Below, one piece after another: positions 18,873-42,252 of a stretch of DNA of 60,758 nt. The stretch spans positions 1 through 60,758 of the forward strand of contig JAOAPV010000083.1 in assembly GCA_025463055.1 (NCBI GenBank), in the 5' to 3' direction. Below the pieces are notes generated by a model, which worked only from the letters and a program-made list of their open reading frames with translations, had not been told where the DNA came from and ran no database searches. The position numbers and the translations under genes are program-made. This DNA is from Candidatus Acidiferrum typicum (lineage in GTDB: Bacteria > Acidobacteriota > Terriglobia > Acidiferrales > UBA7541). Every line of letters starts with the position of its first letter. The first letter of the stretch is position 1.

Positions 18873-21800
18873 CTACATACCCAACGGCTGTAGTTTTGCT
18901 TTCTGCAGCGCCGCATTCACCGCCGCTAAATCCGCGTCGACCGCCTTCCACCGGCCAAGTACGTCCGCTCCCGCCGCCTGCCACTTCTCCGCGGCCGTCC
19001 GCGTATCCGCAGTAGGCGGAGCATCCGCGCCATCCACGATCATCAGCAATCCCGTCAAAGCCGAAGTGACTCTGTGGAAGGTAACGGGCTCTCCACCCTG
19101 CAGCCTGAGCCCAAAAAATCCGAACTCCTCTTCACCCGCCGCGCCGTGCACCTCATCGATCTTGTGCGCAAGCTCAGCAAGTGCCGCGGAGACCTCCGCA
19201 TTGCCGCCCGCCTCTGTCTTCCGCGCAGCAATCTGCTTCTGCAAATCCTCCGCACGCTCCTGAGCCGCGGCCACTTCGCCCAACCGAGCCGAAATGCGCG
19301 AAGCCGCCACAAACTCCTGCCGCAACCCATCCTCTGCCGTGCTGATACGCGGATCCATTTTCACGGTAAGAGCCTGGGACGAACTCTTCCCATTTGCCGT
19401 CAGCTTCACCATGTAATTGCCCGGCAAGCTCCACACCCCCGCCGGTCCGTAAAACGATCGGCGGACGCTTTTCGGCAGCTCATAATGCAAATCCCACACG
19501 AACCGGTGCATCCCACCTTCCGCTGAAAGTGGCGCCGCCTCGCGCACCCACTCCATCGCGATCGGCAGGTTCTTGGGGTTTGTTTTCGGGAGCAAATCAT
19601 CGCTCGAGAATCGCCGGACCAGCACACCATCCGCATCGAAAATTTCCAACTCCACCGGACCGCGCGCCTTATCCTTCAGCCAATAATCCACCATCGCGCC
19701 CTCTGGAGGGTTCTCCGCCAGCGCCTCGTCCATCGGCACCGGCGTACCCTGATCCGATCCCGGCCGAACGCGATATGCAGTTGCCGGCTTGAACAGCCAC
19801 AAATCCGCCGCGCTCACCTGCGGGTTCATCTGCCGCAGCGGACTCGCGTCATCCAATATCCAAAACGAACGCCCATGCGTCGCTACCACCAAGTCGTCGC
19901 CATGCACCACCAAATCGCGAATCGAAGCCGCCGGCATATTGAGCTGCAGCGATTGCCACGAATCGCCGTCATTGAATGAAACGTACACGCCCAACTCCGT
20001 GCATGCGTACAGTAATCCCTTACGCAGCGGATCTTCGCGGACGCAATTCAGAAAACTGCCCTCCGGTATCCCGCTCGAAGCCTGCTGCCAGCTCTTGCCG
20101 AAATCTCGCGTGCGATACAGATAGGGATGCAGGTCCTCCAGACGGTGCCGGTCCACTGCCGCATAGGCTGTCCCGGCATGAAAATGCGAAGCCTCGATGT
20201 GCGTCACCTTGCTCCAGGGCGTCAACTCCGTGGGTGTGATGTTGCTCCACGCTTTTCCTTCATCGCGCGTCAACTGAATCTGCCCGTCATCCGTCCCAGC
20301 CCAAATTTCTCCGGCCTGTACGCTTGACGGTGCAATCGTATAAATTACGCCGCGCCGCTTTTCTGCCGGAGCGTCCGCCGCAGTTGTCGCATCGAGATTC
20401 GACGGTCCACCTGGATCCTCGCGCGTCAAATCGGGGCTGATCGCCTTCCACGAACCTCCGCCATCCGTGGTTCGAAACAATATCTGCGAACCGAAATAGA
20501 GCACGTGCGCATCGATCGGCGAGAATACCAGCGGCAGGGTCCAGGTACGACGCAGCTTTTCCGTCTGCGCCAATCCAGGCGGCACCTGCACAATTTGCTC
20601 GTTACGCAAATCCTGCCGCGTCACGAATCCGCCGTACACAACTTCGGGATTCAGAGGGTCCGGAGCCACATACCCGTTCTCATCGCCCACTTCTATCGGC
20701 CGCCAATCATGAAAATTCAGCGAACGATACTTACTGCGGCTCGGAGTCGCCGCCGCGCCACTATCCTGTTGCGCGCCATAAACCCAATACGGAAACCGAT
20801 TATCCGTAGCCACGTGATAGAACTGCCCAGTTGGTTGGTTGTACCAACTGCTCCAAGTCTCGCCGCCGTTGCGAGTCACGACTGCGCCCTGGTCGCTGCC
20901 CAGAATCATCCGCCGCGGCTCATCGGGATCAATCCACAGTTGGTGATAATCGTCGCCGCCCGGCGCTCCCTTGAGCACCGTAAAGCTCTTCCCGCCGTCG
21001 CCCGAACGATACAGCCCCGTGTTCGGCACATAAACCGTGTCCGCATCCTTCGGATCCACGCTTACTTCGCAAAAATACCAGCCACGTCCCCAGATTCGCT
21101 TGTCGTCAGAAACGAGTTGCCAATTTTCCGCGCCGTCATCGGAGCGATACAGCCCGCCTTCCTTCGCATCGACAATCAAATAAATCCGTCGAGGATTGCT
21201 CGGCGCAAATGCAATTCCCATCCGCCCCAATCCTTCCGAAGGCAATCCGTGCCCGCTCAACGGTTCCCAATGCTCTCCACCGTCTTTCGAGCGATATAAA
21301 CCTGTCCCCGGCCCTTTCGAGGGCGGATAGATATTCCACGGTGGGCGCCGCGTCTGCAGCAGCGCCGCAAAAATCGTTTTCGGATTTCCCGGCTCGAACG
21401 TTAAATCAATGGCGCCTGTATTTTCATCATGAAACAGCACGCGCTTCCACTTTTTCCCGCCATCCTTAGAATAAAAAACTCCGCGCTCCGAGTTAGGCTC
21501 GTACGCATGTCCCAGCGCCGCCACAAACACCTTCTCCGGGTCTTTCGGATCCACCAGAATCCGCGCAATCTGCCGCGAATCCTCTAGCCCGATATGCGTC
21601 CAACTCTTCCCGCCGTCCGCGGACCTGTACATCCCATTCCCATAAGCAATGTCTGAGCGCATGTCCGCCTCGCCCGTCCCCACATAGATGATCTGCGGAT
21701 TCGAAGGCGCCACCGCAATGGCCCCGATCGAAGCGATCCGTTCCGAATCAAATATCGGTTTCCACGTACGTCCAGCATCGTCGCTACGCCAAACGCCCCC

Positions 21801-25899: not shown

Positions 25900-26028
25900 C
25901 GGTGCTCTTTTCCCAATTTATCTGGCGCCCTTCGACCCGGTAGCAATCGTCGTCGGAATTGTCGCTGACTTTGTGTTAGCCTTTGCCGTTGTCCAATGGC
26001 GCCTCAAACGCCGAGCAAAGGCCAAAAG

Positions 26029-26889
26029 ATGCCTGATACTTTGCGCGAGAACACGAACGCGCCCGAGCCCGCTCCTCCTCAGAGCGGCACTAGGCGCCGC
26101 CCGAACGCTTCGCTCTGGATTGGCTTCCTTCTGAGTGTTTTTGCGTTCCTGAGCTATATCCCCATCTTCGCGAAATATCCCATCACTCGCGACATGCCTT
26201 GGGCAAATTTCCTGATTTTCGCCCTCGGCTTGGTGTTCCTGTTCCTTGGCTTGCGCCGGGCGTTCCGTCAGCCGACTGTTTATCGCGGGAAGATCGCCGG
26301 TCCGATTCTGACCACCATCAGCGTGGCGGCTCTCGTCTTCTTCTGCTTCACGATATTTTCTTTAGGCAAGCATCTGCCGCTTTCAACTCAAGCCCCCAGG
26401 GTCGGCCAAAGAGCCCCCGAATTCGCTCTGGCCGACACGAACGGCGGAATCACCTCGCTCGCATCCCTTCTCTCCACGCCTGCAGCATCGCACCCGACTA
26501 AGGGTGTGCTCCTCGTTTTCTATCGTGGCTATTGGTGACCGTTCTGCAACTCCGAGTTACGGGGTATTCAGGATCGTTTGCAAGCCTTTGAGAAATTAGG
26601 CGTCAATCCGGTCGCCATTAGCGTCGACTCTCCATCGGAATCGCAAGATCTCTGCCGCAAAGCCGGTTATACGTACACGTTTCTCTCTGACCCTACTACC
26701 GAAGTAATCCGCCGCTACGATCTCCTCCACAAGGGCGCAGGCGTCAAAGGCCACGACATTGCGCGCCCGGCGGAGTTCCTGATCGACTCCTCCGGCACAA
26801 TTCGCTGGATCAACCTCACCGATGACCTTCGCGTCCGCGCCCGTCCCGACCAAATGCTCCAAGCCGCCAGCGCCTTGGCATCCCAGTAG
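26029..26889 (+). CDS. candidate selenocysteine-containing membrane-anchored peroxiredoxin
   Basis: Read through one in-frame TGA (26536-26538), this gives 286 residues. Three hydrophobic spans (about 28-49, 57-78 and 89-113) precede a thioredoxin-fold AhpC/TSA domain from about residue 122 (GQRAPEFALADTNGG). The TGA is codon 170, in FYRGYW-TGA-PFCNSEL. Relatives of the peroxiredoxin-like group have Cys there (W-C-P-x-C), the peroxidatic residue, so the product would carry a U-x-x-C motif. Homology continues in frame on both sides (AISVDSPSESQDLCRKAG, PAEFLIDSSGTIRW) with no other stop. A hairpin fitting bacterial SECIS rules follows. Without readthrough the protein would end before its catalytic site. 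It could instead be a nonsense mutation or sequencing error; no Sec machinery is in the window. ATG 25996 is an alternative start. Confidence 0.82.
26536..26565 (+). promoter_or_regulatory. putative bacterial SECIS element after in-frame TGA
   Basis: ACTCCG (26549-26554) pairs with CGGGGT (26560-26565), six pairs including one U-G, closing the five-base loop AGTTA (26555-26559). The loop starts 17 nt after the TGA (16 intervening bases) and has G in its first two positions, as in described bSECIS elements. The stem is short, and its function is inferred. Confidence 0.6.
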
Positions 26890-26971
26890 CACAGGGCTTT
26901 ACATCGCCTGTTATGCGGTCTACGTTACGCTCTGGCTCCGCGCGGCCGAAACCGAAAACACACCACGTTTT

Positions 26972-28624
26972 CTACGGCTGAACTGGCACATCTACGGTCT
27001 GCGTTGAGTCGGCGCTGACCTGCACCAGCTTCCCTCCGGGCAAATACTTCTGAATCACGCCAGGCGTGAACCAGTCCAGCTCCCATCCGTTCTCAATAGC
27101 CACCGCGGTGTACTTACCCGGGTGTACGGCGGGAAGATTGAACGAGCCGTCCGAGTCGCTCTGGTCGCGCCGAAACAGCTCAAGGTTACGTTCGGGATCT
27201 TCCGGAACGAGCACCACCATCACGCCGTCCATCGGCTTGCCGCCCTTCAGCGCGACACCTGAAATCTTCCCCGTCCCTCTCGAAAGCACCACACTTAGTT
27301 TTACGTCTTGCCCGGCGGCGATCTCCAGAGTGTGTCCGCTAACCTTTGCGCCGGTTGCCGATAACGCTCTGATCGCACCGGCCGGCGGTTGTCCAACGAG
27401 CAGATCGTAAGTCCCGGGAGGTACGGACCCCTTAAGGCTAAACTCGCCACGTTCGTCCGCTTGCATCAGATACTCTTCGTTGGCAGCTCCGCTGCTCAGC
27501 CGCAGACTCATTGGCGAAGTACGCTTAGCGTTATCGTCGAACTTCATCACGCCGCTCACGCTCGACGATGGCGCCGCGTCCGACGTGTTGATGTCCGTGT
27601 CTCCCGCAAGCTGAATGTTGTTCCATCGCGTATTCGACTCTCCGTCTTTTGAAGAAACCAAACCAAGCCGCAATTTGCCGGGAGGAAGTCCGGAGATTTC
27701 GAAAAGCCCCGGAGCGATCTGTTGGGTGTTGGTCTGCACTCCCATTTTCGATCCGTTGCTCAAGGTTTGTGACACTTGCGCCCACACGTTTTCGGGCTCC
27801 GAGGACGTCGCGGAATGAATGAGGACGTGCAGCGCCGGAACCGGCTGAAGCGAGAAATCGGCGACTTCAGCGTCGCCGGCATGCAAAGTAATAGGAACTG
27901 CTTCCGCGAGATTCTCTGCATGGGAGAAGAAAGTGACGGGATATACGACATCCAGCTCCGGCTCCCCGTTCGTGATTTCCTGATATGTCGTTTGCCCCGA
28001 CGAATCGGTTAACTGGATATGCTGGTGTGTTCTCCGTTGCGCGTACCAGGGTTGCGCGGAAACGGCCACGAAATAGACGCCGGGCAGCAGGTAGCCCAAG
28101 CGATAGCGGCCCCTGTCGTCCGTGTTTACCTCGCGCTCCCGCCAGGTTGTGTGCCGCCCAAAACGTATTGTCTGGTGAAAGAGAATTGCCTGCGCGTTGC
28201 GTACTGGCTCGTTGCGTTCGTCAAGTACTTGGCCGGAGATGGATGCTGTAGGGCGCAAATCGAATCGCAAGTGTTCGGTGTCCAGATCGGGTCCCACAAT
28301 GATAGCCGTCGAAAACTGTGCGTGCTGCTTGTAGACCTGCTGGATGTAGCCCTTATGGTTACCAAAGAGCACGTAGTGGCCTGGCGAAAGATTCTTGAAC
28401 CTGAACCGTCCGTCCTCCCCGGTCATCACGAATTGCTCCGAGTCGCGCACGCCCTGCGCGGTAAGAAATACCTGTGCCTGGGAGAGTGGCTGGCTGGTTA
28501 GAGCATCAACAACCGTCCCGCTAACGAGTAGATTCTGCGCCGAAGGTTGCGCCGTCGGCTTCACGTTCGATTGAGTAAACAAGCCAACGGCTAAAAGCAT
28601 CGCGCACGAATATCGTAAGATCAC
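26972..28624 (-). CDS. secreted protein with carboxypeptidase-regulatory-like domains (first)
   Basis: This 550-residue exported protein has a signal sequence (about 1-18) and several beta-sandwich modules of the carboxypeptidase-regulatory type. They are recognisable as VSGTVVDALTSQPLSQAQVFL followed by GEDGRFRFKNLSPGHYVL, then ISGQVLDERNEPVRNAQ with DDRGRYRLGYLLPGVYFV, and further copies near residues 390 and 460. No catalytic domain is seen, so it is probably an adhesive or binding protein of the envelope; the same modules front TonB-linked receptors in Acidobacteriota. It starts four bases after the stop of a sister gene of similar build, so the two are co-transcribed. Confidence 0.82.
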   Translation of the reverse strand: MILRYSCAMLLAVGLFTQSNVKPTAQPSAQNLLVSGTVVDALTSQPLSQAQVFLTAQGVRDSEQFVMTGEDGRFRFKNLSPGHYVLFGNHKGYIQQVYKQHAQFSTAIIVGPDLDTEHLRFDLRPTASISGQVLDERNEPVRNAQAILFHQTIRFGRHTTWREREVNTDDRGRYRLGYLLPGVYFVAVSAQPWYAQRRTHQHIQLTDSSGQTTYQEITNGEPELDVVYPVTFFSHAENLAEAVPITLHAGDAEVADFSLQPVPALHVLIHSATSSEPENVWAQVSQTLSNGSKMGVQTNTQQIAPGLFEISGLPPGKLRLGLVSSKDGESNTRWNNIQLAGDTDINTSDAAPSSSVSGVMKFDDNAKRTSPMSLRLSSGAANEEYLMQADERGEFSLKGSVPPGTYDLLVGQPPAGAIRALSATGAKVSGHTLEIAAGQDVKLSVVLSRGTGKISGVALKGGKPMDGVMVVLVPEDPERNLELFRRDQSDSDGSFNLPAVHPGKYTAVAIENGWELDWFTPGVIQKYLPGGKLVQVSADSTQTVDVPVQP

Positions 28625-41808: not shown

Positions 41809-42252
41809 TCAGGCGGAGACGGGAGCGGCGGCCCGGAGCCACTGCTCCATTTGGTCGTGACCTACGACGCCAGGCTGCTGCATTACCATGCGGCCACCAT
41901 TGAGGACGACAAAGTTGGGTATACCGCGCACGTTGTAACGTTCGGCGAGCTGCGGATATTTTTCTGTGTCGACCTTTATCACTACGGCTTTGCCGGCCAT
42001 GTCGGCAGCGGTGCGCGCGACTTCAGGAGCGGCGGCGCGACACGGGCCGCACCAATCAGCCCAGAAATCTACGAGTACGGGAACAGGCGTGTTCCGAATA
42101 ATTTCGTCGAATTGCACATCGTCGACCGCCAGGGGCTCAGCGACGGGTGGCAGGGGCGATTTGCAAGCTCCGCAACGGCCAGTGCTGGCGAGATACTTGG
42201 CGGGGACCCGATTTTTTTGTCCGCAATTAGTGCAACCGCGAATGACAGGCAT
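41809..42252 (-). CDS. trxC: thioredoxin 2 (zinc-binding TrxC type)
   Basis: A cytoplasmic disulfide reductase of 147 residues. An N-terminal zinc finger is formed by Cys7-x2-Cys10 and Cys27-x2-Cys30, followed by a thioredoxin fold with the active site WCGPC (67-71) and the cis-Pro in RGIPNF. The zinc finger marks the TrxC subgroup, tied to oxidative stress in other bacteria. GGAGG lies six bases before the ATG. It sits 82 bp downstream of the DUF1931 gene in the same direction and may share its transcript. Confidence 0.95.
   Translation of the reverse strand: MPVIRGCTNCGQKNRVPAKYLASTGRCGACKSPLPPVAEPLAVDDVQFDEIIRNTPVPVLVDFWADWCGPCRAAAPEVARTAADMAGKAVVIKVDTEKYPQLAERYNVRGIPNFVVLNGGRMVMQQPGVVGHDQMEQWLRAAAPVSA

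Follow-up and report, generated by a model that had tools for sequence, protein, structure and literature searches.

Does the single in-frame TGA in a redoxin gene of Candidatus Acidiferrum typicum end translation, or does it encode selenocysteine (Sec), and what would the resulting protein do? We addressed these questions for a gene within a 60,758-nucleotide stretch of DNA, which in its entirety is referred to here as the window. Our best overall explanation, to which we assign a probability of roughly 0.8, is that the gene specifies a membrane-bound Sec-containing redox protein of thiol:disulfide exchange. As judged from sequence, Sec is almost certainly inserted at the UGA at positions 26536–26538.

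A redoxin frame with one internal TGA

Positions 26029–26889 of the forward strand translate into 286 codons followed by a terminal TAG, and the sole internal stop is the TGA at 26536–26538. This agrees with the earlier note, which had described a TGA within a W-x-P-x-C motif in an otherwise open frame of that length. Reading the TGA as Sec (U) generates the site FYRGYW-U-PFC. A second in-frame ATG is found upstream, at 25996, and ATG 26029 is the likelier start because AAAGG precedes it by 7 nt. With TGA read as a residue, a Pfam search returned a single AhpC-TSA domain that is continuous across the codon (101.2 bits against a cut-off of 26; residues 136–271, numbered from the ATG at 25996), bearing out the proposed redoxin homology on both sides, and PF08534 also matches the protein (59.4 bits). 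The further claim that the downstream part has no ribosome-binding site of its own held only in part: a TTG at 26578 is preceded, 4 nt upstream, by AGGA, but both are missing from the matching stretch of the nearest relative (L011). The features of the locus are as follows.

26029–26889, +, predicted selenoprotein gene, 286 residues with Sec at residue 170, stop TAG (translation; alternative start 25996)
26017–26021, +, AAAGG, likely ribosome-binding site 7 nt before ATG 26029 (inference from sequence)
26107–26154, +, predicted membrane helix 1, residues 27–42 (AlphaFold2 helix, hydropathy)
26200–26268, +, predicted membrane helix 2, residues 58–80 (AlphaFold2 helix, hydropathy)
26296–26370, +, predicted membrane helix 3, residues 90–114, followed by the redoxin domain (AlphaFold2 helix, hydropathy)
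26401–26808, +, AhpC-TSA/redoxin domain, PF00578 (Pfam; fold match to peroxiredoxins)
26536–26538, +, TGA, predicted Sec at residue 170, N-terminal place of UxxC (sequence, conserved TGA)
26545–26547, +, TGC, Cys173, second residue of UxxC, peroxidatic-Cys place of peroxiredoxins (alignments)
26549–26565, +, upper stem-loop, SECIS-type, 6 bp with loop AGUUA, 16 nt from TGA to loop (folding; published model)
26767–26769, +, CCG, Pro247, catalytic-Arg place of peroxiredoxins, equivalent to the thioredoxin cis-Pro place (alignments)

The host genome encodes the Sec machinery

The host assembly (G000; 98.9% complete, 146 contigs) contains the complete set of genes that the earlier note had named as a check. 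SelA (L001) scored 505.4 bits against a curated cut-off of 267.9, SelB (C47:39574–41454) 353.4 bits against 242.25, and SelD (C143:22670–23635) 348.7 bits against 125. A tRNA-Sec (L002) scored 65.2 bits against a gathering score of 47 and was assigned the anticodon tca by ARAGORN. When the same models were applied to 14 control genomes, SelA, SelB and SelD each exceeded their cut-offs in 2 and the tRNA-Sec model did so in 5, making the last the least specific of the four tests. In many genomes of the order (for example, L054) the SelD gene, too, carries an in-frame TGA; in the window's genome it does not.

Conservation of the TGA among relatives

Matches at 1e-10 were obtained in 66 of 95 genomes of the order. 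At the best 25 places (E≤1.2e-47, 24 genomes, the window's own included), exactly one TGA was present in 24, the exception being G003, which has none. Below these 25 places the search returned more remote redoxins, the majority with a single TGA and others without any, and few of their sites were read. In a sample of 396 genomes of the phylum, 22 matched at E≤1e-25 and all 22 carried the TGA, placed as W-U-x-x-C in each of the 21 new loci. The same TGA in related strains, another check that had been suggested, was therefore found in both searches. Across the 40 loci in which the site was read (30 from the order search and 10 from a pattern scan), 30 had U at WUxxC and 10 had Cys; L040, among the 30, duplicates the record L011. 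The nearest named relative, from the pattern scan, is a metagenome-assembled genome labelled Candidatus Acidoferrales. Lineages beyond Acidobacteriota were covered by one pattern scan and one plasmid search.

The gene was also expected to have relatives with Cys at this codon. These exist (L029, the distant L038, and eight homologues from Bacteroidota and Pseudomonadota), but the nearest relatives have TGA. In our tree, a grouping of 46 rows includes 45 with Sec, but the fork that joins it is weak (42/24); better supported forks unite 38 rows (37 U, 1 C; 92/93) and 7 rows (7 U; 98/93). Strong SelA matches (E≤1e-100) were present in all 22 redoxin-bearing genomes of the phylum sample. SelA was detected in 276 of the 396 genomes at 1e-3, of which 24, counted by eye, were weaker than 1e-25, leaving 252 strong, and the co-occurrence of redoxin and SelA gave a hypergeometric probability of 3.4e-5 with kinship ignored.

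Two loci differ from this pattern. L029, from G003, is the subfamily's only member with Cys and has the site WCTYC; since its hairpin is lost and its genome has SelB and SelD, it is likely to represent a Sec-to-Cys replacement. The orthologue in G168 (C292:18762–19537; L066, L076) is split over two frames at 19055, reflecting either assembly error or decay.

The coding sequence on both sides of the TGA is also constrained. For the window gene and L011, dN/dS was 0.156 over the 175 codon pairs preceding the TGA and 0.052 over the 117 pairs from it onward, with the TGA left unscored. Three of 15 further pairs were saturated, and the other 12 gave values of 0.046–0.373 after the TGA. The sequence beyond the TGA is under purifying selection.

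A SECIS-type hairpin behind the TGA

The mRNA behind the TGA can form the hairpin ACUCCG-AGUUA-CGGGGU, in which the upper stem starts 10 nt behind the TGA and a 5-nt loop, with G second and then U, is reached 16 nt from the UGA. A published bacterial SECIS model specifies a loop of 3–9 nt, a stem of 4–16 bp, a spacing of 16–37 nt, G in the first two loop positions, and an energy of -7.5 kcal/mol or lower (PMC13188914). The window hairpin agrees with this model in the size of its loop, the length of its stem, the place of the G and the spacing; its energy is -6.4 kcal/mol for the contiguous stem alone and -12.4 to -13.4 kcal/mol for the longer fold (-12.4 over 48 nt), against the published limit of -7.5. 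Taken as stand-alone proof, the hairpin was rejected: an equally good stem-loop accompanies 64 of the 1557 TGA triplets of the window, counting this one. No known RNA family was matched in Rfam at 25900–27200.

Plain dinucleotide shuffling does not single the fold out (z -0.90; 36 of 200 shuffles as stable). Among 500 synonymous re-codings, only 3 were as stable as the window gene (z -2.43). The same measure averaged -1.53 over 51 Sec rows, a count that includes both L040 and L011; 34 rows fell below -1 and 17 were at -1 or above, four of these exceeding 0. The mean over 10 Cys rows was -0.31, with one below -1 (L038, -1.89), and these rows are imperfect controls because 8 of the 10 belong to other phyla, whose base composition differs.

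Covariation was evaluated in 35 rows sharing a common register, leaving out L040 (identical to L011), the remote redoxins L034–L039, L074 and L075, and the Cys rows L029 and L042–L049. Both-sided changes occurred at 4 of 7 pairs, a level reached in 9 of 500 shuffles, and in 11 cells overall, which was reached in none of 500. Only these both-sided changes count as evidence, and not the percentage paired, because the 35 rows were picked from 43 for forming the five inner pairs; of the two outer pairs, one fails to form in 11 of the 35 and the other in 18. In the clade comprising L015, L018, L027 and L067, a Ser-to-Leu codon change is matched across the stem by CGA in an Arg codon, so that the pairs are kept. 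The double changes at two inner pairs may represent a single event, since all come from this clade. In a more distant second clade of 8 rows the hairpin is shifted 7 nt downstream, with the loop AGGUU in 7 of 8, and there the covariation test was uninformative (118 of 500 shuffles) because almost no variation is present. The inner hairpin pairs are lost in the Cys-containing L029, and the Cys homologues from Bacteroidota and Pseudomonadota have no hairpin in the register of the window gene.

The proposal that this is a selenoprotein gene is strongly supported: the genome has the Sec machinery, the TGA is conserved and followed by a SECIS-type hairpin, and the coding sequence on either side of it is under purifying selection. 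SelB with Sec-tRNA(UCA) would decode the UGA at 26536–26538, aided by the stem-loop behind it.

A peroxiredoxin fold with a thioredoxin-type active site

An AlphaFold2 model with C in place of Sec had a mean pLDDT of 94.1 and a pTM of 0.86. Residues ~119–286 of the model match peroxiredoxins, the best being Bcp4 (Z 24.8, 1.9 Å over 158 residues) followed by AhpE (Z 24.5, 1.6 Å over 153 residues). In alignments with AhpE and with two TxxU peroxiredoxins from the same genome, U170 falls at the place of the peroxiredoxin Thr and Cys173 at the peroxidatic place, and Pro247 stands at the place of the peroxiredoxin Arg, Pro being found there in 47 of 48 aligned rows. The canonical peroxiredoxin signature of Thr or Ser three residues before the peroxidatic Cys or Sec is thus replaced at that place by Sec, and the active-site Arg of canonical peroxiredoxins, at the cis-Pro place, is replaced by Pro247. 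As described in PMC2757866, peroxiredoxin sites take the form TxxC, having lost the N-terminal thioredoxin Cys, and carry Arg at the cis-Pro place. Because Thr and Arg are both gone, the predicted active site (U170-P-F-C173 plus Pro247) is thioredoxin-like, and on these alignments and the model the window protein is a predicted peroxiredoxin fold with a thioredoxin-type site. The earlier note had put Sec at the peroxidatic cysteine. This part of it has to be withdrawn: Sec replaces the peroxiredoxin Thr, the peroxidatic place belongs to Cys173, and the catalytic Arg is Pro.

Three hydrophobic helices are predicted in front of the redoxin domain by AlphaFold2 and hydropathy. In the 36 of 48 rows that have the helices, Lys plus Arg averaged 2.5 in the last residues (up to 12) ahead of helix 1 and 3.0 in loop 2, compared with 1.7 in loop 1 and 1.2 behind helix 3. 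Applied to these counts, the positive-inside rule would put the N-terminus and loop 2 in the cytoplasm and the redoxin domain outside it. We infer an extracytoplasmic redoxin domain from these charges alone.

Disulfide reduction or peroxide reduction

The protein probably has an extracytoplasmic disulfide-reductase role, a suggestion that follows from its thioredoxin-type site, from fusions to DsbD_N in relatives with the same WUPFC site (L034, L037, L039), and from a DsbD_TM/CcdA-type membrane protein encoded in its own genome. The U170 selenolate would attack a disulfide, or possibly a peroxide or sulfenic acid; C173 would then resolve the bond as Se-S, and the site could be re-reduced through a CcdA/DsbD-type thiol relay in the membrane.

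A selenoprotein that mainly reduces peroxides, in effect a Sec peroxidase whose UxxC site is unusual, is the strongest competitor, although we consider it unlikely. Selenolates react fast with peroxides, and the closest solved folds are those of AhpE, BCP and other peroxiredoxins. The substitution of U and Pro for the peroxiredoxin Thr and Arg argues against it, as do the separate canonical TxxU peroxiredoxins of the same genome and the DsbD_N fusions of the WUPFC relatives. The neighbourhood of the gene varies. It is preceded by an S9 peptidase gene here and, by eye, in G040, and by an amidohydrolase-like gene in G033. Ten flanking frames from five further loci, picked mechanically by length, belong to varied families, two of them, both from L085, having no match. 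No constant gene partner was seen in these eight loci.

Alternative readings of the codon

If the TGA were an ordinary stop, the locus would be a pseudogene, or a truncated membrane protein followed by a dead redoxin remnant. The standard code does end the frame at this codon, and the G168 relative, split over two frames, would fit such decay. We nevertheless regard this as very improbable: dead sequence is at odds with a single TGA maintained across the order and phylum searches and with a dN/dS of 0.052 after it, the genome has the full Sec machinery, and the subfamily's one Cys member has lost the hairpin. A sequencing error, or decoding of TGA as Trp, Cys or Gly, a generic alternative for any draft genome for which we found no supporting point, is the least probable of all, given that the TGA is common to other assemblies, a tRNA-Sec with anticodon UCA is present, outside homologues have Cys here, and TGA serves as the terminal stop in 8 of 40 and 11 of 21 frames of relatives.

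Other redoxins with an in-frame TGA

Three more AhpC-TSA genes with an in-frame TGA occur in the host genome: C64:53380–53766 (L079), with the site TEGU; C75:44726–45109 (L080), with TSGU; and C116:23103–23441 (L081), with WASWUGC. Two of the three failed a contiguous-stem test at -5 kcal/mol (C64, -0.5; C75, none). Considered alongside the window gene, the three suggest a link between the supply of selenium and thiol redox chemistry in these bacteria. Within the window itself, a weak AhpC-TSA match at 41851–42117 on the minus strand fell below the cut-off (22.8 bits against 26).

The order also contains a second redoxin group of ~356–587 residues with the motif FFRSADWUPFCK, represented by L034, L035, L037 and L039, which have TGA, and by L038, which has Cys. 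DsbD_N was found in each member scanned (L034, L037, L038 and L039), and the group seems to be a further Sec redoxin with links to a disulfide relay.

Relationship to known selenoproteins

The closest solved folds, AhpE/BCP-type peroxiredoxins, differ from the window protein in that it has Sec for Thr, Pro for Arg and an added membrane part. The extracytoplasmic thiol-disulfide oxidoreductases ResA, TlpA and StoA have a CxxC-type site, a cis-Pro place and one membrane anchor; the window protein resembles them in the first two and departs from them in its three predicted helices. No NCBIfam model scored above its cut-off for the window protein (ResA, 42.7 bits against 170; PrxU, 35.4 against 270; the SelL-related NF040769, 43.3 against 120). 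Proteins named 'Peroxiredoxin-like family protein' from Bacteroidota, Pseudomonadota and plasmids, with WCPYC or WCPFC sites, are ~27–32% identical to it. The eight such loci that were read have FYRG-x-W-C-P-[FY]-C at the same place, with Cys where the window protein has Sec, and the N-terminal part is shorter and without the three helices in the 5 aligned.

Prx-like UxxC selenoproteins are already on record. A COG0450-like example from the Sargasso Sea has been known since 2005 (PMC1088965), others are given in PMC2398784, and a 'Prx-like thiol:disulfide oxidoreductase' family with PF00578 and UxxC or UxxU appears in PMC9312934 and PMC13188914, the latter placing its thiol:disulfide oxidoreductase activity under 'predicted'. 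These share with the window protein the PF00578 domain and UxxC in place of TxxU; going by their published descriptions, the window protein would be set apart by its three predicted helices, the FYRGYWUPFC motif and its occurrence in Acidobacteriota. A 'Redoxin family protein' selenoprotein (PF08534, UxxC; PMC13188914 Table 1) likewise has a redoxin domain and UxxC, again compared by description only. An earlier count for the phylum listed 3 families and 4 selenoproteins (PMC1794560), and 3 selenoprotein genes are known in Occallatibacter riparius (PMC12013277); in each case, one may belong to the window subfamily. In the open main texts of PubMed Central we found no account of the subfamily in Acidobacteriota. 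The description of the gene as a new selenoprotein therefore needs tempering: no NCBIfam model passes its cut-off, but Prx-like UxxC selenoproteins, the PF00578 family among them, are already published. The window gene is a Sec-retaining, membrane-anchored branch of that published kind.

Under the standard code, annotation would truncate the protein at the active site; given this cut and the absence of a passing NCBIfam model, genes of this type are probably annotated, wrongly, as short membrane proteins. With Sec in 45 of 46 rows, albeit across a weak fork, the subfamily is well suited to the question of why certain proteins retain Sec over long periods, and its Cys member without a hairpin (L029) provides a natural control. 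More speculatively, and with low odds in our estimation, this could be a nearly Sec-obligate branch of membrane redoxins in which the three helices pass membrane electrons, from quinone or through a CcdA-like relay, to the UxxC site outside. If that were true, envelope disulfide reduction in many Acidobacteriota would depend on selenium.
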